A DNA stretch of 34,515 nucleotides. Source: an uncultured Chthonomonas sp. Its GTDB lineage: Bacteria > Armatimonadota > Chthonomonadetes > Chthonomonadales > CAJBBX01. A model generated the notes under the pieces. It was given only the letters and a program-made list of their open reading frames with translations. It was not told the origin of the DNA and made no database searches. The stretch covers positions 1-34,515 of the forward strand of contig CAJBBX010000162.1 of assembly GCA_903951425.1 (NCBI GenBank), given 5' to 3'. Positions 1,978 to 20,015 of the stretch are shown piece by piece. The position numbers and the translations under genes were made by a program. Every line of letters starts with the position of its first letter. Position 1 is the stretch's first letter.

Positions 1978-2982
1978 ATGAAACTGACCCGCTATGTAGG
2001 CAATCCCATCCTCTCACCCAACCCGGCCAACCGCTGGGAGGCGCTGGTCACCACCAATCCCGGTGCGTGGCTCGACCCTGGAACCGGCAAGGTCACCATG
2101 CTCTACCGCGCGGCCGGGGCCGACGTGGAGCACCGCATCTATCTGGGCCTCGCCGAGAGCGACGATGGCAAGTCCTTCCGCCGTGTCTCAGATCAGCCCG
2201 CCTTCTCGCCCAGCGTGGACGGCTTCGACGCCGGTTGCGTCGAGGATCCGCGCATCGTCAAAATGGGCGAGTGGTTCTACGTCACCTACGCGTCGCGCCC
2301 CTTCCCGCCGGGCCAGTACTGGGAGTCGGGAGCCAAGCTGGGCCGTATCGCTGCGCCGCCCGAGTGGCCCTGGGCCCTGCGCGAGAATGCCACGGCTACC
2401 GGACTTGCGATCACAAAGGACTTCCGTACATGGATCCGCGCCGGCCGCATGACCAACCCCACGGTGGACGACCGCGATGTCATCCTCTTCCCGGAGAAGA
2501 TCAACGGCCGCTTCGCCATGCTCCACCGTCCCATGGACTGGGTCGGCCCGAAGTACGGCACCGAGTACCCGGCCATGTGGATCTCCTTCTCCGAGGACAT
2601 GCTGGACTGGCGCGATAGCCGCATGCTGGCTACCGCCGCGCTGCCCTGGGAGAACAAGAAGATCGGCGGCAACACGCCTCCCATGCGCACCGAGGCGGGC
2701 TGGCTCACGCTCTACCACGCCGTCGGCGCCGACCACCGCTACAGGCTGGGCGCCATGCTGCTGGACCTCCACGACCCATCGCGCATCGTGGCGCGCACAC
2801 CGGACTGGCTCCTGCAGCCCGAGGAGCCCTACGAGCTGGAAGGATACTACCCTGGCGTTTGCTTCCCATGCGGCAAGGTAGCCATCGGCGACGTGCTGCA
2901 CGTCTACTACGGCGCGGCCGACAAGTTCGTGGGGTTGGCGACCTGTTCATTGAGCGGCCTGCTGGACTACATGCTCAGCTAA
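1978..2982 (+). CDS. GH130-type beta-mannoside phosphorylase/hydrolase
   Basis: This 334-residue cytoplasmic protein has no signal peptide and shows the five-bladed propeller motifs of glycoside hydrolase family 130 in order: NPILSPNPANRWE (9-21), NPGAW (27-31), LYRAAG (42-47), VEDPRI (88-93), DRDVILFPEKING with LHRP about ten residues on, KIGGNTPP followed by LYHAV, and a C-terminal FPCGK...YYGAADK. Family members phosphorolyse or hydrolyse beta-1,2- or beta-1,4-linked mannosides; Asp90 in EDPR is the proposed general acid. The His of LYHAV fits phosphate-binding members, so a phosphorylase is slightly favoured. GGAGG precedes the ATG by 7 bases. It is divergent from the 65-residue gene. Confidence 0.9.
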   Translation: MKLTRYVGNPILSPNPANRWEALVTTNPGAWLDPGTGKVTMLYRAAGADVEHRIYLGLAESDDGKSFRRVSDQPAFSPSVDGFDAGCVEDPRIVKMGEWFYVTYASRPFPPGQYWESGAKLGRIAAPPEWPWALRENATATGLAITKDFRTWIRAGRMTNPTVDDRDVILFPEKINGRFAMLHRPMDWVGPKYGTEYPAMWISFSEDMLDWRDSRMLATAALPWENKKIGGNTPPMRTEAGWLTLYHAVGADHRYRLGAMLLDLHDPSRIVARTPDWLLQPEEPYELEGYYPGVCFPCGKVAIGDVLHVYYGAADKFVGLATCSLSGLLDYMLS

Positions 2983-4395: not shown

Positions 4396-5862
4396 ATGCC
4401 CCGTCTGTGCTTGTTCGCCATCCTGGCCGCCTGTGCCTGCCTCGCAACCGCCGCCTCCGCCGCCGACAGGCCTGGCAACCCGAACACCGACTGGTTCTCG
4501 CGCGCCGGCTACGGCGTCTTCGTTCACTACCTCTCCGGTCTTCAGAACGTCGCAGAATCGTCCAACAGCCTGGGCAAGCAGACCTCTTGGGACGCCTGCG
4601 TCCGCGAGTTCAACGTGGAGGCCTTCGCAGGCCAGATGCGCGAGTGCGGCGCGGGTTACGTCATCTTCACAGTGATGCAGGTCAACCGCTTTATGATCGC
4701 CCCGAACGCCACCTATGACCGCCTCACGGGCTACAAGCCGGGGGAGGCATGCGCCAAGCGCGACTTAATAGAGGAGCTCTACCAGGCGCTGCAAAAGCGC
4801 GGCATCCCCCTGATGCTCTACTACACCGGCGACGGACCGCGCGGCGACGCCAAGGCCGCGGCAGGCATGAAGTGCCCGCCCGACGGCCAGGTGACCGAGG
4901 AGTTCGTGCGCAACTGGGCAGCAGTGGCCCGCGAGTATGGCGAGCGGTACAAGGGCAAGGTGACCGGCTACTGGTGCGACGGCTGCTACCCCTTCATCGG
5001 CTATGACGACAAGAAGCTGGGCATCCTGGCGCAGGGCCTTCGCGCCGGCAACCCCAAGCGCATCATTTCTATGAACAATGGCGTCAACCCCAAGGTGATC
5101 TCCTACACCCGCCACGAGGACTTCACCACGGGCGAGATGAACACGTTCACCGACGTGCCGCTCTCGCGCTGGATCGACGGCGAGCAGTGGCACCTCCTCT
5201 CGTTCCTGGGCGGCTGGTGGGGCGGGCCCGGTCTGCAGCTGAGCCGGCGGCAGCTCATCGACTACGTCCACACGGTCAACGCCGTCGGCGGCGTCGTCTC
5301 CATCGACGTGATGCTCTACCGCGACGGCCTCATCGAGCGCTCACAGCTGATGACCCTCAAGGGCCTCCGCGCCGGCCTCAAGGCCAAGCTGGGCGAGGGC
5401 GACGCCTGGAAGCGCGGCAAGGCTGTGCCTCCGCGCAACAAGGCCTGGCGCCGGATGGCCGCGCTCCTGAGCCTGGATGGCTCCCGCCGCCTGATTCCCA
5501 GCGTGGGTGAGAACGAGCACGGCGCCCGACTGGGTGTCGACGGCGACCCGAACACCTCGGCCGTGGGCGGCGGCGAGTACCCCTGGACCTACGAGGTCGA
5601 CTTGGCCTCGGCTGGCCCGCTTCGGCGCGTGGTGGTGACCTTCACGTGGCGCGGCTACGCGGTGGCCGGCGACATCAAGGTCTCGGCCGATGGAGCGCGA
5701 TGGGAGACGGTCCACTCCTGGGAGGATGGCACAGGCGGCAAGATCGATCTGGCCCTGCCGGGCAGCCCCGTTCGGTTCATCCGCGTCTGCGGTCGCAAGC
5801 CCGACGGTCCCGACCAGCCGGGCATCCAGATGGCCGTAACCGAGCTCGAGGCCTACGAGTAG
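4396..5862 (+). CDS. Exported GH29-like (alpha-L-fucosidase-like) protein with discoidin domain
   Basis: This 488-residue protein has an N-terminal Sec signal ending near ASAAD (residue 23); LAAC at 10-13 also resembles a lipobox, so lipidation is possible. Residues ~30-335 match the GH29 catalytic barrel: GVFVHY near 38, AKRDL near 120, LMLYYTGDGP, and YWCDG with Asp195 where fucosidases have the WFDG nucleophile. Residues ~360-488 look like an F5/8 type C (discoidin) carbohydrate-binding domain. GH29 enzymes release alpha-L-fucose by retention, but this branch lacks the usual HWG (it has HYL), so specificity is open. GGAGG precedes the ATG by 7 bases. It leads a three-gene run with gaps of 18 and -4 bases. 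Confidence 0.8.
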   Translation: MPRLCLFAILAACACLATAASAADRPGNPNTDWFSRAGYGVFVHYLSGLQNVAESSNSLGKQTSWDACVREFNVEAFAGQMRECGAGYVIFTVMQVNRFMIAPNATYDRLTGYKPGEACAKRDLIEELYQALQKRGIPLMLYYTGDGPRGDAKAAAGMKCPPDGQVTEEFVRNWAAVAREYGERYKGKVTGYWCDGCYPFIGYDDKKLGILAQGLRAGNPKRIISMNNGVNPKVISYTRHEDFTTGEMNTFTDVPLSRWIDGEQWHLLSFLGGWWGGPGLQLSRRQLIDYVHTVNAVGGVVSIDVMLYRDGLIERSQLMTLKGLRAGLKAKLGEGDAWKRGKAVPPRNKAWRRMAALLSLDGSRRLIPSVGENEHGARLGVDGDPNTSAVGGGEYPWTYEVDLASAGPLRRVVVTFTWRGYAVAGDIKVSADGARWETVHSWEDGTGGKIDLALPGSPVRFIRVCGRKPDGPDQPGIQMAVTELEAYE

Positions 5863-5880: not shown

Positions 5881-8127
5881 ATGCCGACGTTGAGCCGCCG
5901 TGAGCTGGCCGGGGGAGCCGCCGCCGTGGCCGCGCAGCCCGCGTGGATGGCCGGCGGGCAATCCGCCCCAGCCGCTCCGCGCATGCCGGTCTGGATGATG
6001 CCTCCGCCTTGGACCGCCAACGGCCAGTGCCTCCGCGAACTGATTAACCGGCCCGACGAGTGGAGGCGGACCCGCGCGGCGATCGACGGCATGGGCTACT
6101 GGCCATGGCTCCTCAACGTCCACTTCAGCGACGCCGAGATTCGCAGCTTCTTTTCGCGCATGGCCGAGTGGAAGCTCCCCTGCAACATGGAGGTGCCGGT
6201 CCTGAAGAAGGAGGTCCCCACGGCGCGGGAGTCCTTCGCCCAGCTCGAGGGCTTCACCAAGCGCTTCCGGCCGCTGGGCTGGAAGGTGGACGCCTTCTCC
6301 TTCGATGAGCCCGCCTACGCCTCGCGTCACGTCCTCGGCTACACGCCGCAACGCTGCGCCGAGGAGACGGCGGCCTACGTCGGCATGCTCCGCGCCGTTG
6401 AGCCGAAGGTGTCGGTCTGCGCCATCGAGCCCTACCCGGCCCTGACCGTGGACGAACTTCGCGGCTTCGTCGACAACCTCCAGGCACGGTGCGCCGCCAC
6501 CGGCGTGAAGGGCATCGAGATGCTGCGGCTCGACGTTGACTGGGCCGGCATGGCCAACCAGCTGAGCGGCTCATGGAAGGACGTGAAGGCCGTCGAGGAG
6601 CACTGCCGGGCGGCAGGCGTCAAGTTCAGCCTCATCTGCTGGGCGTCCGACTACCCCTATCTGGCCGAGCAGGGAATGGCCCACGCCATGACCTGGTACA
6701 CCGGCGTCATGCATACCGCACAGGCCTACGCGCTGGCAGGCGGCCGGCCGGATCACTACATGGTCGAGAGCTGGGTCCACTGCCCCGAGCACGCCGTGCC
6801 CGAGGAGAGCCTGGAGAGCTTCAGCCGCTCCGTGCTGGACCTCGCCGCGCTGGTCCGGGGCCGCAAGGCCCCGAAGCCTGCCGCTGCGCCGACGCCCGCG
6901 CCGGTCGTGGCCGCGCCCGACTACGCCGCCGAGGCCGCGCGCCTCACGGACTTGACGCACCGCACCTTCTGGCGCCCCGCCGCCCGGCAGTACGCGGCCC
7001 CCGTGCGAAGCGCCGAGACCGTCGACAGCGAGGGCGTCCGCAACAACGCCTACGTCCTGTGGCCCGCCCTGGTCGCCCTCAGCGCCCTCACCGCCGGCGA
7101 GAAGGCCCGGCCGGGCAGCTACGCCCGCACGATCGCCGAGGTCTACGACGGCCTGGAGGCCTACTGGGACCCCGATACCAACGCCTACAACGCCTGGCTC
7201 ACATTCCCCGGCAACCGCGACCGCTACTACGACGACAACGCCTGGGCGATCATCACCCTTGTCGAGGCGTACGAGGCGACCCGCCAGACGCGCTACCGCG
7301 ACCGCGCGGCAGACGTCATGCGGCGCTTCATGCCCCAGGGATGGAGCGAGGGCAAGCCCGGCGGCATGACCTGGGGCGTCGATCCCACCAAGGCGGGCAC
7401 CGGCGACAAGGGCGCCTGCTCCACCTCCGGCGCCGCGCTGGCGGCCCTGTCGCTGGCCCGCGTGGGCATCGACAAGGAGGCCAACCTCGCCTTCGCGGGC
7501 AAGGCCGTTAACTGGGTGCTGCAGACCCTGAAGGACGGCGACGGCCTCATCCGCGACGGCCTGGGCGCGCCGGACTGGCACATGAACGCCACCAAGTGGA
7601 CCTACAACACCGGCGTGCCCATCCAGGTCTGCGTCGAGCTTCATGCGCTCACGGGCGATGCCGAGCGCCTGATGCAGGCGAAGGCCCTGGCCGAAGCCGT
7701 CATGGACCGGAGCAAGCGCCTTTACGACGGCTTGGTGCAGGACCCCGCCAAACGCCACTGGTACGATGCCTCCTTCTTCGTCCACTACCTCGTCGACGGC
7801 CTGCTGGCCCTCCATGGCGTAACCCGAGACGCCGCCATCCTCGCCGAGGTCCGCCGCAATGCCGACTACGCCGTGACCCACCTGAAGGACCCCACCGATG
7901 GCCTCTACTGGCGCAACTGGCGCCTCTGGATGGTCGGCCAGCCGCAGTACGAAGACTGGACCCGCATGACGGGCCAGACCCACTGCCTGGAGGCCGACGA
8001 ATCGGAGCGCTCCAAGGCTACGGACCAGATGGCCAAGCCCGTCGACCAGCGCCCACTCGTCAAGACGCTCCTCGCCAACGCGGCCATCGCGAGGATGATG
8101 TGGAGCCTGGCGGCGGCCACCCGATGA
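5881..8127 (+). CDS. Tat-exported fusion: TIM-barrel-like domain plus GH76-like domain
   Basis: This 748-residue protein starts with a twin-arginine signal (SRREL at 5-9, then a short Ala-rich core). Residues ~35-325 form an unrecognised, probably TIM-barrel domain with FDEP at 141-144 and a late SWVHCPEH segment, both typical of retaining glycosidase folds. A Pro/Ala linker (~330-347) leads to a C-terminal domain (~350-748) with GH76 alpha-1,6-mannanase features: YYDDNAW with the adjacent Asp pair 451-452, GGMTWG, KGACSTSGAALAALSLAR, and WTYNTGVPI followed by ELHALTGD. GH76 acts on alpha-1,6-mannan inside chains. A GGGAGGGGG site precedes the ATG. The stop overlaps the next start (ATGA). Confidence 0.8.
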   Translation: MPTLSRRELAGGAAAVAAQPAWMAGGQSAPAAPRMPVWMMPPPWTANGQCLRELINRPDEWRRTRAAIDGMGYWPWLLNVHFSDAEIRSFFSRMAEWKLPCNMEVPVLKKEVPTARESFAQLEGFTKRFRPLGWKVDAFSFDEPAYASRHVLGYTPQRCAEETAAYVGMLRAVEPKVSVCAIEPYPALTVDELRGFVDNLQARCAATGVKGIEMLRLDVDWAGMANQLSGSWKDVKAVEEHCRAAGVKFSLICWASDYPYLAEQGMAHAMTWYTGVMHTAQAYALAGGRPDHYMVESWVHCPEHAVPEESLESFSRSVLDLAALVRGRKAPKPAAAPTPAPVVAAPDYAAEAARLTDLTHRTFWRPAARQYAAPVRSAETVDSEGVRNNAYVLWPALVALSALTAGEKARPGSYARTIAEVYDGLEAYWDPDTNAYNAWLTFPGNRDRYYDDNAWAIITLVEAYEATRQTRYRDRAADVMRRFMPQGWSEGKPGGMTWGVDPTKAGTGDKGACSTSGAALAALSLARVGIDKEANLAFAGKAVNWVLQTLKDGDGLIRDGLGAPDWHMNATKWTYNTGVPIQVCVELHALTGDAERLMQAKALAEAVMDRSKRLYDGLVQDPAKRHWYDASFFVHYLVDGLLALHGVTRDAAILAEVRRNADYAVTHLKDPTDGLYWRNWRLWMVGQPQYEDWTRMTGQTHCLEADESERSKATDQMAKPVDQRPLVKTLLANAAIARMMWSLAAATR

Positions 8128-11525: not shown

Positions 11526-12560
11526 ATGCGCCGCATTCTGGTGGCCGCGCTGTTCGCCGTATGGAGCTTACCCGCCGTCGCCGCACCGGGAGATACGCCC
11601 AAAGACCCCAAGATCGCTCCCGCATCGTGGCGCGAACTGGGTCCCATGTCGTTCAAGCTCGCCAAGGGCGAGACCTTCCGCCTCGTCACCGTCGGCAAGA
11701 TGCAGGGCGAGACGTCTATGAGCATGAACGGCCAGGACATGAGCTTCGGCATGTCGGGCACGACCGTCTCCGGCGTCAAGACCGTCGTCGCATCCGACAC
11801 GGACGGCGAGTACAAGCTCGACATGCTCACCGATGAGCTGTCGATGAAGACCGAGATGGAGGTCATGGGTCAGGCCATGCTCATCTCGATTCTCAACGAC
11901 CAGATCAAGGTGGTGCAGGGCGATAACGTGCTCGTCGATACCGCCACCGGCAAGGGCGGCGATATGGTCAAGATGTTCCAGGGCCAGGGCGTGGGCTACA
12001 AAGCCAAGGGCTCGATGACCATCACCGCCGACGGCAAGGTCGTCGGCAAGGTGGAGGGCGATCCAGCCTTCATCAAGGCGCAGGGGATGACGCCTAGCGC
12101 CGGCCCATTCATGGTCGTGTTCGGCAAGGACTCGCTAAAGCAGGGCGCCACCTGGACCGTCGAGACCGACCTGACCGCGCTGCAGCAGCTTCAGCTCAAG
12201 ACGCCCACCAAGCTGATCAGCACGATGAAGGTCGAGGGGCTGGCCACGGTAGACGGCGTGGAGTGCCTCGACATCTCGTTGAGCATCCCCGTCAAGGTAG
12301 CCGGCGCCAAGGCGCAGATGGAGCAGCAGGGCGTCGAAGTGGCCTTTGACCTGAAGAACATGGCGGGCTCCACCACGGGCCATGCGTACTTTGACCCCAA
12401 GGCCGGCCGATTCGTCTACGCCTCGATGAACTCCGACATCCAGATGGAGGGCGACGTCGCCCTGCCCGGCGGCATGGGCCAGATGCCCATGAAGATGCAC
12501 ATGAAGATCAAGGCCGGTGTCTTCCGCGTCCCGGTCGCCGCAACCGCGGCGCCTAAGTAA
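11526..12560 (+). CDS. Exported Met-rich beta-type protein of unknown function
   Basis: The 344-residue product has a Sec signal (residues 1-20, ending AVAA). The remainder is beta-strand-like, with regular strands such as FRLVTVGKM and YKLDMLTDE, and a TWTVETDLT core reminiscent of DUF6263-type envelope proteins. That family link is a guess. Two clusters are unusually rich in methionine (about residues 57-80 and 313-331, MGQMPMKMHMK). There is no lipobox or membrane anchor, so the protein is probably periplasmic or secreted. AAGGAGG precedes the ATG by 8 bases, one of the best ribosome binding sites in the window. A hairpin follows its stop by 28 bases. Confidence 0.75.
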   Translation: MRRILVAALFAVWSLPAVAAPGDTPKDPKIAPASWRELGPMSFKLAKGETFRLVTVGKMQGETSMSMNGQDMSFGMSGTTVSGVKTVVASDTDGEYKLDMLTDELSMKTEMEVMGQAMLISILNDQIKVVQGDNVLVDTATGKGGDMVKMFQGQGVGYKAKGSMTITADGKVVGKVEGDPAFIKAQGMTPSAGPFMVVFGKDSLKQGATWTVETDLTALQQLQLKTPTKLISTMKVEGLATVDGVECLDISLSIPVKVAGAKAQMEQQGVEVAFDLKNMAGSTTGHAYFDPKAGRFVYASMNSDIQMEGDVALPGGMGQMPMKMHMKIKAGVFRVPVAATAAPK

Positions 12561-12660: not shown

Positions 12661-13353
12661 CTACTTCGACTGCGGATCGATCTTGATCGCCTTCAGATGC
12701 TGCGCCAGCCACGGCTCGAGCGCCTTGGCGATCCCCAATGTGGCCGCCCGCTGCTCATGGGGCGTCTTCGGACCGCCGCTGACCATCGTGAAGAGCCCTG
12801 AGATGAAGACCGTGCCCAGCGCCTTGAGGGTGTCCTCCTTGGCCGTGCTGTCCATCTTCAGCTCCTTCACGTCCAGGGCCACCTCCTGCCGCTTCACGTC
12901 AACGATGCGCACCGTCACGGCGCACGTCGACTTGGTCTTCGGCCCGAGGCTGACCCAAACGCTGCGCGAGTGCCACGCTGCGCTACCGGCCATCACCCAG
13001 TCGACGCCCAGCTTCTGGCCCACGCGCAGCATCTGAGCCGCCGTGGGCATCTGCGTCGACGGAGCGAATTCCGCCTGGTTCGTCTCCTGCCAGGCGGCCA
13101 CCGTCTTCACATCCGACATCCGGTCGACCCGAACCTTCACCAGAATGTCCGTCAGGAAGTCCTTGGCCGTCTTGCGGGCGCCGTCCGTTCCGTCCACGAG
13201 GTGCCACGGGAGTACGGCGATCGTCTCCACGCGCACCGTGCCGTCGCCTTCCGCCTGCGACGGGCCTGCCTGCATTGCGGTGGCGACCGGTCCAACGGCT
13301 ACGGCGGCCGCACAGGCCGCACCCAACCAGATACGTCTACAGATCGACATCAT
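12661..13353 (-). CDS. Exported protein with CsgG/TolB-N-like fold (tentative)
   Basis: This 230-residue protein has a signal peptide (residues ~1-35, ending near ATAMQAG). The mature part begins ETIAVLPW, followed by helices and a LGVDWVMAGSA strand, the order seen in CsgG-, LpoB- and TolB-N-like envelope proteins, which bind partners or assemble outer-membrane complexes. No catalytic motif is visible, and the family call rests on pattern only. The start is one of two adjacent ATGs (13353 or 13350); GGAGG lies 3 or 6 bases upstream, which favours the second. The longer frame to 13446 has no ribosome site. The 224 bases between it and the next minus-strand gene show no gene or convincing promoter. 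Confidence 0.7.
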   Translation of the reverse strand: MMSICRRIWLGAACAAAVAVGPVATAMQAGPSQAEGDGTVRVETIAVLPWHLVDGTDGARKTAKDFLTDILVKVRVDRMSDVKTVAAWQETNQAEFAPSTQMPTAAQMLRVGQKLGVDWVMAGSAAWHSRSVWVSLGPKTKSTCAVTVRIVDVKRQEVALDVKELKMDSTAKEDTLKALGTVFISGLFTMVSGGPKTPHEQRAATLGIAKALEPWLAQHLKAIKIDPQSK

Positions 13354-13577
13354 CTTCCTCCATCGGTGCTCTTGGTCTGAGCGTCGCGCCGGGCAGGGCT
13401 CGGGCCTGCCGAGGCATGGGTAACGGAGGGTGATGAGGATGCCCATCGCCGCGCCCGGCGCAACGCTTCAGCGACGGAACTCTCGCAACCGTCGCCAAAC
13501 CGGAAAGCCCGGCGCGTAAAATCGCGGAATCTTGGCGCGCTACCGCGCGATGTCGGCTCATTGGGCGTCCGGCCGGA

Positions 13578-14030
13578 CTACAGGTGTGCGGCAGCCGCCT
13601 CGACCTCGGTGCTGGGGAGCGAGTAGTCGATGCCCTCGGCTTGCAGCCAGGCCTCCGCCACGGCGCGGTACGACTGGCACTCATGTAGGCGCCACGCGTC
13701 GACAATGTCGGGCCAAGTGTGCACGGAGTCCTTGAAGCGGTGGAATGGCGACCGGCCGTCCAGCGCTCGGCGCAGGGCCGGGCGGGCGTAGGGCGGCGCC
13801 ACATCCTCAGCGAACGTCTCGCGGATGCCCAGGGCATCCCGGTTGGAGACCGGCGGTATGGCCAGGTACCGGCTGGGTTCAGCGTCCACCATGCCCGCCA
13901 CATCGTCGTCGGCGCCCATCTCGAGGTTCCGCATCAGGACGGCGCCCGAGTGGAGGTCCAGGTAGTAGGCGACCTCTGGGATGTAGTTGTCGAGAGCTTG
14001 GAACAGCGACTCGGCGGAAATCTCGATCAT
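13578..14030 (-). CDS. UPF0158 family protein
   Basis: This 150-residue soluble protein matches UPF0158 in layout. An N-terminal EVAYYLDLHSGAV hairpin (17-29) is followed by RYLAIPP (53-59), a GIRETFAEDV helix, LRRALDGRSPFHRFKDSV near 84-101 and a C-terminal AEAWLQAEGID helix. The biochemical role of the family is unknown. I chose the ATG at 14030 because GGGGAGG lies 9 bases upstream; the ATG at 14039 abuts that site directly and the longer frame to 14249 has no support. It is divergent from the rhaT operon. A minus-strand TATGAT near 14091-14096 could be its -10 box, though no -35 is evident. Confidence 0.8.
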   Translation of the reverse strand: MIEISAESLFQALDNYIPEVAYYLDLHSGAVLMRNLEMGADDDVAGMVDAEPSRYLAIPPVSNRDALGIRETFAEDVAPPYARPALRRALDGRSPFHRFKDSVHTWPDIVDAWRLHECQSYRAVAEAWLQAEGIDYSLPSTEVEAAAAHL

Positions 14031-14238
14031 CGCGCCCATCCTCCCCGCGCCGGCTGACGCCCCCGGGCCAACCGGGAGTGCGCCTCGCACTACATCATAC
14101 GTCCGAATGAGGGCGCACGTATACCCGACCGGCAAGATCGTCGCGCCGTCAGGCAGGAGTCTGCCGCGCTTGTGCCTAAGCTGGAATGCAGGCGGGCCAT
14201 TCGGGTCCGCAACCCTTGACCACGGAGGCGCGATCGCC

Positions 14239-15354
14239 ATGACGCCCAACCCGCTACTCGGCGTGTTCTTGCATTCGGTCGGCGGACTGGCGGCGGCCAG
14301 TTTCTACGTGCCCTACCGCCGCGTGAAGGGGTGGGCCTGGGAGACCTTCTGGCTGGTCGGCGGCGTCTTCAGCTGGCTGATCGCGCCCTGGGTCGTGGCC
14401 TTGCTGACCGTGCCCGACGCCGTGGGCGTGTTGCGCGCAGCGCCGGCCTCGGCCATCCGCGGGGCCTTCGTCTTCGGCGTGCTCTGGGGCGTGGGCGGGC
14501 TCACCTTCGGCCTCAGCATGCGCTACCTGGGCATCGCCCTGGGCTACGCCATCGCCCTCGGCTTCTGTGCCGCCTTCGGCACGCTCGTGCCGCCCATCGT
14601 CGGGGGCAAGCTGCCCGACCTGATGGCCCACTCCTACGGCCACATGGCGCTGGGCGGCGTTGCGATCTGCCTGCTGGGCATCGCCATCAGCGGGGCGGCG
14701 GGCCGGTCCCGCGAGCGCGAGACGCCGGTCGATCCCGCCGACGCCGGCAAGTCGGAGTTCAACTTCGGCAAGGGGGTGATGGTCGCCATCTTCTCCGGCA
14801 TCCTCAGCGCCAGCATGTCCTACGCCATCAGTGCGGGCAAGCCCATCGCCGAGATCGCCGTGAAGCGTGGCGTGGGCGACCTGTGGCAGAACACCCCGAG
14901 CTTCATCGTCATCCTGGCCGGTGGCTTCCTTACCAACGCCGTCTGGTGCGCCTACCTCTCGGCCCGCAACAAGAGCTACACCGACTTCGCCAAGCTGGAC
15001 GTCCCTGCGGGCCTCAACGTGCTGCTCTGCGCCTTGGCCGGTGTCACTTGGTACCTGCAGTTCATGTTCTACGGCATGGGCACCACGCAGATGGGCAAGC
15101 TCGACTTCGCCAGCTGGACGCTGCACATGGCCTTCATCATCATCTTCAGCACCCTCTGGGGCATCGCCCTGAAGGAGTGGAAGGGGAGCAGCGTTCGCAC
15201 CAAGTGGCTGGTGGCGGCGGGGCTGGCCGTGCTGGTGCTCTCCACGGTGGTGGTGGGCCACAGCAGCAACATGCAGGCCGCCTACGAGAAGGCGCAGCGC
15301 GCCGCCGAGGCCGGCGCGATGATCAACTACCGAGGACCAGGAGCCTCGCGATGA
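14239..15354 (+). CDS. rhaT: RhaT-type L-rhamnose/proton symporter
   Basis: This 371-residue membrane protein has about ten hydrophobic segments and matches RhaT closely from the start: NPLLGVFLHSVGGLAAASFYVPYRRVKGWAWET is cut here as NPLLGVFLHSVGG (3-15), then FYVPYRRVK and WETFWLVGG. Later hallmarks include NAVWCAYL and the YLQFMFYGMG segment. RhaT imports L-rhamnose (or a related deoxysugar) with a proton across the inner membrane. GGAGG precedes the ATG by 10 bases. Its stop overlaps the next start (ATGA), followed by a dehydrogenase and a sulfatase, so the three genes form an operon. No rhamnose isomerase or kinase lies in the window, so the actual sugar may differ. Confidence 0.9.
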   Translation: MTPNPLLGVFLHSVGGLAAASFYVPYRRVKGWAWETFWLVGGVFSWLIAPWVVALLTVPDAVGVLRAAPASAIRGAFVFGVLWGVGGLTFGLSMRYLGIALGYAIALGFCAAFGTLVPPIVGGKLPDLMAHSYGHMALGGVAICLLGIAISGAAGRSRERETPVDPADAGKSEFNFGKGVMVAIFSGILSASMSYAISAGKPIAEIAVKRGVGDLWQNTPSFIVILAGGFLTNAVWCAYLSARNKSYTDFAKLDVPAGLNVLLCALAGVTWYLQFMFYGMGTTQMGKLDFASWTLHMAFIIIFSTLWGIALKEWKGSSVRTKWLVAAGLAVLVLSTVVVGHSSNMQAAYEKAQRAAEAGAMINYRGPGASR

Positions 15355-16427
15355 TATGCATTCCGGATACCATGCGCGCCGTCCGCTGCTACGGCCCCGG
15401 CGACTATCGGCTGGAGACGTTGCCCGTACCCGAGCCGGGCGCCGACGAGATCCTTGTCCAGGTGGAGGCCTGCGGCGTCTGCGCCTCCGACGGCAAGTGC
15501 TTCGGCGGCGCCCCGCTCTTCTGGGGCGACGCCACACGGCCGCAGTTCGTGCAGCCTCCCGTGACGCCCGGCCATGAGCTGATCGGCCGCGTGGTCGCCC
15601 TGGGGGCCGGCGCCGAGGCTCAGGGCCTCAGGGTGGGCGACCGGGCCATCTCCGAGCAGATCGTGCCCTGCTGGAAGTGCCGCTACTGCCGCAGGTCGAA
15701 CTACCACCTGTGCGTGGAGGCCGACGTCTACGGCTTCCGCCGGCGCGTGCAGGGCGCCATGGCGGACTACATGATCTTTCCGGCGGGCTCCCTGAACCAC
15801 AAGGTGCCCGAGGAGCTCCCGCGTGACCAGGCCGCCCTCATGGAGCCATTGGCCTGCTCCCTCCGCGCAGTGGAGCGCTCCCGGATGCAATTGGGCGACG
15901 TGGTCGTGGTGGCCGGAGCCGGCACACTGGGGTTGGGCATGGTCGCCTTCGCGCGGCTCCGGAACCCGGGGTTGCTCATCTCCATCGACCGCCTGGCTCC
16001 ACGCCTGGAGCTGGCCCGCGCTCTGGGTGCAGACCTGGCCATCGATCCCGGCGCAGAGAACGCCGTCCAGCGTGTGCTGGACCTGACCGAGGGCTACGGC
16101 TGCGACGTCTATATCGAGGCCACGGGCCATCCCGACGCCGTGAACCAGGGCCTGGCCATGATCCGCAAGGGCGGCAACTTCGTGGAGTTCTCCGTGATGC
16201 CGCGCGAGACGACGTGCGATTGGACCCTCATCGGCGACGCCAAGGAGATCAACATCTACGGCGCGCACCTGGGTCCGCACCTCTATCCCACGGTCATCGA
16301 CTATCTGGCGCGGGGCCTCGTGAAGGTCGACGGCATCGTCACCGACGCCTTGCCGCTGGAGGATTACGCCGAGGGCTTTGACCGCGTCCACCGCGGCATC
16401 GGGATCAAGACGCTGCTCGTGCCTTAG
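15351..16427 (+). CDS. Zinc-dependent medium-chain alcohol/polyol dehydrogenase
   Basis: The 358-residue protein is a medium-chain dehydrogenase. The catalytic zinc site is visible as GVCASD (Cys44) and GHE (His75-Glu76). The structural zinc loop has four cysteines, 107, 110, 113 and 121 (CWKCRYC...C). An NAD(P)-binding VVVAGAGTLGLGM motif follows near 181-193. The closest look-alikes are erythritol/threitol and L-threonine or sorbitol dehydrogenases, so a sugar or polyol substrate is likely. The start at 15351 overlaps the rhaT stop and has AGGAG 7 bases upstream. Coupling to a deoxysugar symporter suggests that it oxidises the imported sugar or a product of it. Confidence 0.9.
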   Translation: MICIPDTMRAVRCYGPGDYRLETLPVPEPGADEILVQVEACGVCASDGKCFGGAPLFWGDATRPQFVQPPVTPGHELIGRVVALGAGAEAQGLRVGDRAISEQIVPCWKCRYCRRSNYHLCVEADVYGFRRRVQGAMADYMIFPAGSLNHKVPEELPRDQAALMEPLACSLRAVERSRMQLGDVVVVAGAGTLGLGMVAFARLRNPGLLISIDRLAPRLELARALGADLAIDPGAENAVQRVLDLTEGYGCDVYIEATGHPDAVNQGLAMIRKGGNFVEFSVMPRETTCDWTLIGDAKEINIYGAHLGPHLYPTVIDYLARGLVKVDGIVTDALPLEDYAEGFDRVHRGIGIKTLLVP

Positions 16428-16451
16428 GCAGTCCGAGCGAAGGAGAGCGCT

Positions 16452-17930
16452 ATGAAGGCCATTGTGCTGATGTTCGACTCGCTGAACCGCAGGATGCTCT
16501 CGCCCTACGGCTGCGACTGGACCCGCACGCCCAACTTCGCACGCCTGGCCCGCCGCACGGCCACGTTCGACAACTCCTACGTCTGCTCCATGCCCTGCAT
16601 GCCCGCCCGGCGCGAACTCCATACCGCTCGGCCCAACTTCCTGCACCGCGCCTGGGGCCCGCTGGAGCCGTGGGACGACTCCGTGCCCGCCATGCTGCAG
16701 GCCGCCGGCGTCCGCACGCACCTCGCCAGCGACCACTACCACTACTGGGAGGATGGCGGCGCCACCTACCACACCCGCTACGGCTCCTGGGAGTTCTTCC
16801 GCGGGCAAGAGGGCGACCCATGGATGGGGCAGGTGGCCGACCCCGAGATGCCCCGCAATTCCTTGGGCCGGCACCAGAGCATGGAGTACCACTCGCGGCA
16901 GGACATGGTGAACCGGGGCTTCATGCGGCGGGAGGCCGACCACCCGCAGGCCCGAACTTTCGCAGCCGGCCTCGACTTCATCCGCCGCAACGCCGACCAG
17001 GACCAGTGGATGCTGCAGATCGAGACCTTCGACCCGCATGAGCCCTTCTTCTCGAATCGGCGCTACAAGGACCTCTACCCCTACGACCACGACGCCATGC
17101 ACTTCGACTGGCCCTTCTACCGCTTCGTGGACGAGACGCCGGAGCAGGTGCAGCATATCCGCTACGAGTACGCCGCCCTTCTGTCGCAGTGCGACGCCTA
17201 CCTGGGCGACCTGCTCGACATGATGGATGAGAAGAACCTGTGGGACGACACGATGCTCATCGTTTTCACCGACCACGGGTTCATGCTGGGCGAGCACAAC
17301 TGCTGGGCCAAGGTCTGGCAGCCCTTCTACCAGGAGATCGCCCACACGCCCTTCTTCGTCTGGGATCCGCGGTGCCGCGCGGCGGGGGAGCGCCGTTCCG
17401 CCCTGGTGCAGCCCGCGCTGGACACCGGCCCCACGCTACTCCGCTACTTCGGCTTGGAGCCCACCGGGGATATGCTGGGTTGCGACCTGGCCCAGACGGC
17501 TGCCGCCGACACCTCCGTGCGGGATGCGGCGATCTTCGGCATGCACGGCGCGCAGGTCAACGTCACCGATGGCCGGTACGTCTACATGCGGGCGCCGGCC
17601 ACGTCCGACGGCGGGCCGCTCTACAACTACACGCACATGCCCACGGCCATGCGGGGCTTCATCGCACTGGAGCAGCTTCGGCAGGCGGAGATGTCGCCGG
17701 CCTTCACCTTCACCAAGGGATGCCCCACCATGCGCATCCCTGCGCGCTTCTGGATCACGCCGACCGCCGACTGCATGCGCAATGCGCTCTACGACCTGGA
17801 GGCCGATCCCGGGCAGCAGGCGCCCGTCACCGAGCCGGCCGCCGAGGCGCGAATGGTCGACCACATGCAGCGGCTGATGCTGGAGTGCGACGCCCCCGGA
17901 GAGCAGTTCCTGAGGCTCGGGCTGGCGTAG
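16452..17930 (+). CDS. Cys-type (formylglycine) sulfatase
   Basis: This 492-residue protein is a type I sulfatase. The modification motif C-x-P-x-R is present as CMPAR (Cys49 to Arg53), so Cys49 would be converted to formylglycine by a separate maturase. The metal-binding Asp9 lies in MFDSLN, and the second metal cluster is TDHG (Asp274, His275) followed by LGEHNCWAK. No signal peptide is seen, so it probably acts in the cytoplasm on imported sulfated sugars, unless exported atypically. AAGGAG precedes the ATG by 6 bases, and the gene starts 24 bases after the dehydrogenase. Phosphodiesterase-type activity in this superfamily cannot be excluded, but CxPxR favours sulfatase. Confidence 0.9.
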   Translation: MKAIVLMFDSLNRRMLSPYGCDWTRTPNFARLARRTATFDNSYVCSMPCMPARRELHTARPNFLHRAWGPLEPWDDSVPAMLQAAGVRTHLASDHYHYWEDGGATYHTRYGSWEFFRGQEGDPWMGQVADPEMPRNSLGRHQSMEYHSRQDMVNRGFMRREADHPQARTFAAGLDFIRRNADQDQWMLQIETFDPHEPFFSNRRYKDLYPYDHDAMHFDWPFYRFVDETPEQVQHIRYEYAALLSQCDAYLGDLLDMMDEKNLWDDTMLIVFTDHGFMLGEHNCWAKVWQPFYQEIAHTPFFVWDPRCRAAGERRSALVQPALDTGPTLLRYFGLEPTGDMLGCDLAQTAAADTSVRDAAIFGMHGAQVNVTDGRYVYMRAPATSDGGPLYNYTHMPTAMRGFIALEQLRQAEMSPAFTFTKGCPTMRIPARFWITPTADCMRNALYDLEADPGQQAPVTEPAAEARMVDHMQRLMLECDAPGEQFLRLGLA

Positions 17931-17931
17931 G

Positions 17932-19071
17932 CTACCCGGAGCCGTACTCGATGCTCGCCTCGGTGACCGCCGCCAGGTTCTCCAGCGGAGTGCCGGGGCA
18001 GACGTTGGCGCCGTCGCCCAGCAGTAGGCCGCCGGACGGCGCCAAGGCCTCCAGACAGCGCAGGGCGGCGGCCTTCACTTGTTCAGCGTCGCCGTCCTTC
18101 ATCAGCATGGGGTCCAGGTTGCCCCAGAGGTAGGCGCTGCCGCCCAGTTCGCGTGCCACCAGCGCGGGATCGACCCGGTAGCCGAAGAGGTTGAAGCTGC
18201 TGATCCGCAGGTCGTCGCGCAGCGAGGCCAGCAGGTGCTTGCTGTCGCCGCACATATGCATGCCGCGCCCGTCCGGCAGCCCGGCCCCGAAGCGGTCGAA
18301 GAGGGCGGCGTCGTACGGTACGCAGAACTCGCGGAACATGGCCGCCGACATCACCTGGGCCGCGTCCTCGGCGAGGCCGTAGCCGCCGCGCGGGCGCGGG
18401 TCCAGTTCGCGGAAGCGCTCCTCTGCGGCCATCATGCCGCGGGTAATCGTGTCGAGCAGCTTGTGGCAGGTCTCCGGCCTCTCGGCCTGCCAGTAGTAGA
18501 GCTCCTCGCCGGCCAGGTCCACGGCCACCATGTGCGGCCCCTCGCCGCCGATGCCTGCCGGGGCGACATCGACGCGCCCCTCCTGTCCGCCGATGGTGAC
18601 TCGGGTCTCCTTGGCCAGCGCCCCGAAGGTGGCGCGCCACTCGTGCGCCTTGCCCCAGAGGCCCGACATGGCGTCCGGCATGGCGAGGCTTTCAGCGGCC
18701 TCGGGGGTCTTCAGTGTCGGGATCGCCCGGGGCGTCTCGTCGGAGCCCCAACCGATCTCGGCCCCGAACGCGCTGGCGTTGGTGACGTTGTCGAAGTAGG
18801 GCGCAATGGTGACCACCGGGGAGCACCAGACGTCCTCGGGCACCCGCTCCATGCGGTACTTGGCGAACTGGAGAAGCCAGTGGTACTGCGTCTCGGCGTC
18901 GCGGAACAACTCGGAATACGGCATCCCGAGGAGCGGCGCGAAGTAGCGCGGCACGACGCAGAAGCCCACGGGCACTCGGTCCGCGATGCGGAACGCGCCA
19001 CGCGCCTCCAGTCGCCGCCGGTTCTGCTCGAAGCGCTCCGTCGGGTAGTCGATGGTCAGCGTGTGGCGCAT
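17932..19071 (-). CDS. UroD-family protein, MtaA/MtbA-like (corrinoid methyltransferase type)
   Basis: The 379-residue protein belongs to the uroporphyrinogen decarboxylase superfamily but not to HemE. It carries the zinc motif H-x-C...C of methylcobamide:CoM methyltransferases (MtaA/MtbA): His272 and Cys274 in MHMCGDSKH, and Cys358 in NVCPGTPLENL. The family segment WGNLDP lies at 316-321. Such proteins move methyl groups to or from a corrinoid, but no corrinoid protein is encoded here. It follows a sugar ABC permease by 35 bases, so a sugar-linked job such as demethylation is inference. The ATG at 19071 has only a weak, distant AGGGG. Its stop is one base from the convergent sulfatase stop. 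Confidence 0.78.
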   Translation of the reverse strand: MRHTLTIDYPTERFEQNRRRLEARGAFRIADRVPVGFCVVPRYFAPLLGMPYSELFRDAETQYHWLLQFAKYRMERVPEDVWCSPVVTIAPYFDNVTNASAFGAEIGWGSDETPRAIPTLKTPEAAESLAMPDAMSGLWGKAHEWRATFGALAKETRVTIGGQEGRVDVAPAGIGGEGPHMVAVDLAGEELYYWQAERPETCHKLLDTITRGMMAAEERFRELDPRPRGGYGLAEDAAQVMSAAMFREFCVPYDAALFDRFGAGLPDGRGMHMCGDSKHLLASLRDDLRISSFNLFGYRVDPALVARELGGSAYLWGNLDPMLMKDGDAEQVKAAALRCLEALAPSGGLLLGDGANVCPGTPLENLAAVTEASIEYGSG

Positions 19072-19106
19072 GGTTGGTTCCGCCCCTTCTGGTTGTGCCC
19101 GGCCTC

Positions 19107-20015
19107 TCAGGTCCCCTGATAGTGGACGTGCTTCTCCGACAGGCGGAGCGCCAGCAGCGTGAGGCCCAGGATGATGACGAACATGATCCATCCCATGGCG
19201 CATGCGTAGCCCATCTTGTGGTAAAGGAATGCGTTGTCGAACAGGTACATGGTGTAGAAGTACGTGCTGCGCGCGGGCGCCCCGCCGGGGAACATTACGT
19301 AGGGCTCGGCGAAGACCTGCAGCGCCCCGATGATGCCCATGATGCCGTTGAAGAGGATCACCGGCGACAGCATCGGGATCGTCACGTGCCGGGTCCGGGC
19401 CCACCAGCGCGCCCCGTCCAGTTCAGCCGCTTCGTACATCTCCTGCGGCACGTCCTGCAGGCCTGCCAGGTAGATCACCATGGCGTTGCCGGCGCCCCAG
19501 AGGGCCATGAGGATCAGGGCAGGCTTGCTCCAGTTCACGTCGCTCAGCCAGTTGGGACCCTTCACGCCCACGGTGGCCAGTACCGTGTTCAGGACGCCGT
19601 GTTCGCCGTTGAAGACCCAGAGCCAGAGCACGGCCAGCGGGATCGTCGGCACCAGCGAGGGCAGGAAGAAGACCGTGCGGTAGACCGCCATGCCCCGCAC
19701 TTTGGTGTTGAGGAGCAGGGCCAGCGAGATCGCCACCACCATGCCGAATGGGATCGCCAGCGCCGCGTAGAAGCCCGTGTTGGCCAGGCTCTTCCAGAAG
19801 ACGTCGTCGGCCATGAGGCCCGTGTAGTTCATGGCGCCGATCCAGACAGGCGCCCGCAGAACGGAGTAGTCACAGAAGCTGTAGTAGGCAGCCATGGAGA
19901 GCGGGTAGACCTCGAAGAGGAGGAAGCCCACGATCCAGGGCGATACGAAGAGGAGCGCCGTCAGCCTCTCGGCACGGGCGGCCGCGCTCAGGCGTCGTCG
20001 CGCGGGTTGGCTCAT
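19107..20015 (-). CDS. Sugar ABC transporter permease, MalF/UgpA-like
   Basis: This 302-residue inner-membrane protein has six hydrophobic segments and the binding-protein-dependent permease EAA loop at about 194-215 (EAAELDG then the TIP motif), which docks the ATPase. It is the MalF-type half of a CUT1 sugar importer. Its ATG overlaps the stop of the upstream binding protein by 4 bases. Unusually, no MalG-type partner follows; the next gene is the UroD-family protein. It may pair with a permease elsewhere or with the MalG-like protein at 22911-23756. Confidence 0.92.
   Translation of the reverse strand: MSQPARRRLSAAARAERLTALLFVSPWIVGFLLFEVYPLSMAAYYSFCDYSVLRAPVWIGAMNYTGLMADDVFWKSLANTGFYAALAIPFGMVVAISLALLLNTKVRGMAVYRTVFFLPSLVPTIPLAVLWLWVFNGEHGVLNTVLATVGVKGPNWLSDVNWSKPALILMALWGAGNAMVIYLAGLQDVPQEMYEAAELDGARWWARTRHVTIPMLSPVILFNGIMGIIGALQVFAEPYVMFPGGAPARSTYFYTMYLFDNAFLYHKMGYACAMGWIMFVIILGLTLLALRLSEKHVHYQGT

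Follow-up and report, generated by a model that had tools for sequence, protein, structure and literature searches.

The window, that is, the whole stretch of 34,515 nucleotides that was analysed, carries on its forward strand (5881-8127, coordinates and frame exact) a single open frame encoding a fusion protein of 748 amino acids. From its N-terminus, this protein comprises a Tat-like signal within a low-confidence N-terminal stretch (residues 1-34; 5881-5982), a (beta/alpha)8 barrel of an unnamed family (residues 35-328; 5983-6864), a Pro/Ala linker (residues 329-345; 6865-6915) and a GH76 domain (residues 346-748; 6916-8124). On the same strand, an alpha-L-fucosidase-like gene (PF01120, 41.9 bits) with an additional F5/8-type C domain occupies 4396-5862 and ends 18 bases upstream of the fusion start, while a gene for a GH123 catalytic-domain protein (PF13320; 8124-10430) starts inside the fusion stop codon, with a 4-bp ATGA overlap. 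A GH130 gene (PF04041, the mannoside phosphorylase family; 1978-2982, forward strand) lies nearby, upstream of the fusion. The order fucosidase-like, fusion, GH123 is conserved in a second genome (G002), and about 5.7 kb of extra genes stand between the fusion and the GH123 gene in a third (L095:1167-6845, G001:C181). Judged by the families they encode, these genes can reasonably be read as a putative operon for breaking down a glycan that bears mannose, fucose and hexosamine. At the far end of the insert in G001 the C-terminal ~25 residues of the fusion occur a second time. Further along the window are two predicted proteins (11526-12560 and 12664-13446) with no Pfam match at E<=0.001 and with starts that look secreted by eye, and, downstream of the glycosidase genes (13987-19404), a RhaT-like transporter, a sulfatase and URO-D-family genes.

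The fusion was seen only in the genus of the window, where it forms a single frame in three genomes, with lengths of 747-748 residues of which 673-676 are identical in pairwise comparisons. Among these three genomes dN/dS is 0.15-0.24 for the N-terminal domain and 0.16-0.26 for the GH76 domain, so that neither half is decaying and both are under purifying selection. A chance open reading frame is excluded, since two other genomes conserve it over its full length at ~90% identity, with dN/dS of 0.15-0.26 over both domains. At the N-terminus, the motif SRREL at residues 5-9 is a partial match to the Tat consensus; it is present in all three genus members, the same twin arginine being found in L005 and L006, and the genome of the window encodes TatC. 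From this motif and the genomic TatC the protein is predicted to be a Tat substrate and to be exported, in line with the Tat-type start proposed by the initial annotation. In a full-length AlphaFold2 model (pLDDT 81.5, pTM 0.55), 104 residues fall under pLDDT 50, including residues 1-30 and the linker at 329-343, which is also variable among the three genomes, and the relative placement of the two domains is unreliable. No HMM covering the whole fusion protein was found in Pfam or NCBIfam.

The C-terminal domain is a member of GH76 by sequence, fold and catalytic pair. PF03663 matches residues 382-705 (E 4.2e-30; 105.9 bits, with the cut-off at 25.9), in agreement with the fusion to a GH76-like domain proposed earlier. 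When the fusion protein was searched against PDB sequences, 15 chains were recovered besides a nanobody, all aligning from residue 361 onwards, and the C-terminal part alone matched 4mu9 (3.2e-20) and 4c1s (3.7e-17). The domain is helical in the full-length model and Foldseek ranks 1-31 read as GH76 entries (the title of the entry at rank 25, Lin0763, does not name GH76), which identifies the fold as an alpha/alpha toroid, with uneven confidence across the domain. The pair D451-D452 (7231-7236, forward strand), within YYDDNAW at 449-455, had been recognised with the correct numbering; it is invariant in all ten rows of an alignment of the three fusion proteins with seven sequences of further GH76 loci (A3), and it aligns with the DD of 4mu9 and 4c1s. 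A study of ShGH76 describes two adjacent aspartates as the nucleophile and the acid/base of a retaining mechanism; they are D136-D137 in that enzyme and D124-D125 in BcGH76, and BT2949, which has Glu at the second catalytic place, is an exception (PMC9213526). Family and residues together suggest endo-alpha-1,6-mannanase activity: the domain would be a retaining enzyme that cuts within alpha-1,6-mannan chains, with D451 and D452 presumably serving as nucleophile and acid/base. Known enzymes of this kind (ShGH76 of Salegentibacter, BcGH76/Aman6, BT3792 and BT_3782) share with it the alpha/alpha toroid and the adjacent D-D pair, and match the C-terminal domain in sequence as well as in fold; unlike them, the window protein bears an N-terminal TIM barrel of ~290 residues.

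The fold of this N-terminal domain is clear, its family is not. An AlphaFold2 model built on an alignment of 21 sequences (pLDDT 95.5, pTM 0.92) predicts with confidence eight strands alternating with helices, i.e., a TIM barrel, as the initial annotation had supposed. That annotation had also called the domain unknown, and this view stands: residues 1-330 drew no Pfam match at a threshold as loose as E<=1, and NCBIfam gave only a chance-level match on the fusion protein. Among relatives, no credible Pfam match was obtained for any of the 16 main-clade members (best E 0.0044), no Pfam model exceeded its cut-off on the barrel of ten distant members, and NCBIfam returned nothing credible for ten members. 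PDB searches with the profiles A1, A5, A6 and A9 gave weak partial matches only, the best with A9 being a beta-amylase (E 0.079 over ~75 positions). Structural comparison was equally generic. Foldseek against the PDB retrieved miscellaneous TIM barrels (best E 8.2e-6, TM 0.51), aldolases and sugar 3-epimerases among them, and the VIA fold search yielded 50 rows with Z from 15.8 to 14.3, of which 24 are glycosidases by title (GH53, GH20, PslG, GH10, GH51, MANEA and heparanase), alongside non-glycosidases at tied Z such as pyruvate kinase, isopropylmalate synthase and PdxJ. The attempt to name the barrel by its fold was given up, as no family stood out in Foldseek on the PDB, in VIA or among viral models; the likeness to GH53, GH20, GH39, GH51, GH79 and GH99 barrels is one of fold alone, at ~6-13% identity and with none above the others. 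Kinship with GH123, considered for the FDE motif that the domain has in common with its neighbour, was likewise rejected (no PF13320 match at E<=1; hhalign of A1 against ten GH123 domains gave a probability of 0.3 over 18 columns). A search of open-licence PMC papers found none on the N-terminal domain or on the fusion.

Relatives of the N-terminal domain were detected in 13 of 151 genomes with a single-sequence search and, with profile A1, in 23 of the 291 Armatimonadota genomes. Outside the phylum, none was found in viral contigs or plasmids, and a single-sequence scan of genome contigs returned two contigs only, both of the same genus (91-93% identity). The relatives are for the most part ~320-380 residues long, with one domain and a signal-like start; the stand-alone Armatimonadota sequences (L007-L011, L013, L019 and others) are 36-44% identical to the window protein over the domain and, in the main clade, have the same carboxylates, and they differ from it in lacking the GH76 fusion, while being likewise uncharacterised and unnamed. 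In profile comparisons the main clade (A1) is linked with three others, A5 (E 5e-27), A6 (4e-24) and A7 (1e-19). From these sequences, the domain appears to be part of an unnamed family, uncatalogued in Pfam and NCBIfam, whose members mostly stand alone and are secreted. One member is a 1319-residue protein in which the barrel is followed by a CBM6 (E 2.1e-16) and a weak FN3 match (L090:2014-5970, G141:C52; the same as L014). Other arrangements occur. In L012 (G025:C152) the barrel is the C-terminal half, the N-terminal half being an alpha/alpha domain that resembles squalene-hopene cyclase C-terminal repeats (PF13243, 1.1e-10). A distant clade (L094/L046 of G055 and L047 of G148) has DEP and DIEP but Q at 296, and in L047 the barrel is fused to DUF5648. 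Three barrel-domain paralogues lie close together, with other genes between them, in L085:6991-12184 (G091:C54), and the stand-alone relative L089 apparently lies next to an efflux pump.

Conservation within the domain was read from alignment A9, whose 24 rows were drawn from A2 (17 of 21 sequences), A6 (5 of 8) and A7 (2 of 3), other weak matches to profile A1 staying unaligned; L107 was left out of A8. Four residues are invariant in all 24 rows: W61, E104 on strand 3 (6190-6192), D218 of RLDVDW on strand 6 (6532-6534) and W298. D142, which ends strand 4 (D142-E143, 6304-6309), is kept in 23 rows, so that E104, D142 and D218 persist in 23-24 of the 24 rows though identity to the window domain drops to 16-20%. 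Three further carboxylates are clade-specific, namely E143, directly after strand 4 (17 of 24 rows), E183 of IEPYP on strand 5 (6427-6429; 19 of 24) and E296 of VESW at the end of strand 8 (E296-S297-W298, 6766-6774), where E is present in 13 rows and W in all; all these positions are on the forward strand. Of the two elements singled out by the initial annotation, FDEP (141-144) is a real clade feature, but its E143 is replaced by G or H in two distant clades that keep E104, D142 and D218. SWVHCPEH (297-304) holds up only in part: W298 and P302 occur in all 24 rows and E296-S297 in the main clade, while H300, C301, E303 and H304 vary, and the element was discarded as a catalytic motif, just SW and P being widely conserved.

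The predicted fold is not at odds with an active-site pocket, as conserved carboxylates lie where the strands of the barrel reach their C-terminal ends. Conservation is highest at the C-ends of strands (mean 3.20, compared with an overall mean of 2.49; P 0.0002 over 5000 random draws, with 4 near-identical rows of 21 left out) and strand N-ends are no more conserved than random sets (P 0.35), which fits an active site at the C-terminal face, an expected pattern that is no proof of catalysis; the loops of the two faces hardly differ (P 0.029 and 0.057). Canonical clan GH-A catalysis, suggested by the DEP on strand 4, was rejected: E143 sits at the acid/base position directly after strand 4, but two related clades have G or H there, and the nucleophile Glu was not found at the end of strand 7, which stops before W254 and has no conserved carboxylate (position 257 is D, N, E, V or P in the main clade). 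Enzymes of the clan GH-D type (GH27, GH31) use an Asp on strand 4 and an Asp on strand 6; D142 and D218 occupy the corresponding strands, which may be a lead, with no GH-D sequence or fold match among those listed. Candidate acting residues would be either D142 with D218, kept across clades, or, in the main clade, E143 with E183 or E296. The CBM6-bearing member L014 has Q at both 142 and 296, which counts against a simple catalytic account.

In the sister genus the two domains are separate genes. G011 has a stand-alone GH76 protein (55% identity) with its own Tat-like signal, whose homology to the fusion starts just behind the linker, and G009 has a stand-alone N-terminal domain (44% identity) and no GH76 match. 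In G011 there is also a fragment of the N-terminal domain, frame-broken and cut short (L084:7500-7732, C205), ~2.4 kb from a homologue (57%) of the fucosidase-like gene of the window. The simplest history, drawn from few genomes, would be that two genes were joined in the genus of the window.

Taking these observations together, we lean, with modest confidence, towards reading the whole protein as an exported enzyme in which a GH76 endo-alpha-1,6-mannanase is linked to what is probably another glycosidase, from an uncatalogued family of TIM barrels. In this second enzyme the active site would lie at the barrel's C-terminal end, E104, D142 and D218 being putative core carboxylates and the clade-specific E143, E183 and E296 possibly setting substrate or mechanism; it would most likely act on the same mannose-containing heteroglycan, taking off a side chain or else an adjacent sugar, and the fucosidase-like, GH123 and GH130 neighbours may also work on this glycan. 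That the N-terminal domain is an enzyme at all is argued from its conserved carboxylates, the barrel, the predicted export, the CBM6-bearing relative L090 and the gene order. Against a glycosidase stand the many reactions catalysed by TIM barrels and the non-glycosidases tied in VIA, the loss of the candidate glutamates E143 and E296 in homologous clades, the near-equal conservation of the loops on the two faces and the stand-alone relatives without evident sugar-gene context.

These objections leave room for other readings. Rather than an enzyme, the barrel could be a non-catalytic glycan-binding or targeting module that keeps GH76 on its substrate, as the clade-by-clade loss of candidate carboxylates and the different partners found elsewhere (CBM6 in L090, the squalene-hopene-cyclase-like alpha/alpha domain in L012, DUF5648 in L047) would suggest; we regard this as fairly unlikely, given that the barrel interior retains E104, D142 and D218 at such low identity, and that most members stand alone at ~320-380 residues, unusual for a pure targeting module. 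Barrels of the enolase and sugar-isomerase types hold metal sites with carboxylates on successive strands. The carboxylates on strands 3, 4, 5 and 6 resemble such sites and aldolases and sugar 3-epimerases are among the fold matches, so the domain might instead be a sugar isomerase or epimerase, a lyase, or a metal-dependent barrel with an acidic cluster on strands 3-6. An enzyme of that sort is an unlikely candidate for a protein predicted to be exported, fused to and adjoining polymer-degrading hydrolases, and with no histidine among the 45 most conserved positions of the domain. As for the other half of the protein, GH76 is described as including Dfg5-type glycosyltransferases (PMC12295086), and the GH76 domain could be a transglycosidase of this type rather than an endo-mannanase; this seems very unlikely, as bacterial GH76 proteins are nearest by sequence and fold, Dfg5 (6ry0) appears at rank 37, and the neighbouring genes encode degradative enzymes by family.

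A bolder form of the favoured two-glycosidase reading, which we put forward tentatively and hold to be possible rather than probable, is that the N-terminal domain represents a new superfamily of glycoside hydrolases, of which it would be the first branch to be recognised, with a common core formed by E104 (strand 3), D142 (strand 4) and D218 (strand 6) and with E143, E183 and E296 gained or lost along with mechanism or substrate, the fusion then being an alpha-mannan endo-cutter tethered to a debranching glycosidase.

On present evidence the protein joins an uncatalogued barrel family to a known one and is not categorically new. If the N-terminal domain is non-catalytic, it would be an ordinary modular GH76. 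If it is a glycosidase, it would open a barrel superfamily lying outside Pfam and NCBIfam, for which sequence searches found no solved relative, and the fusion would name both the partner activity and the likely substrate class, a mannose-containing heteroglycan. With the core fixed and E143, E183 and E296 exchanged between clades, the family provides a natural series for finding the carboxylates that bear the chemistry.
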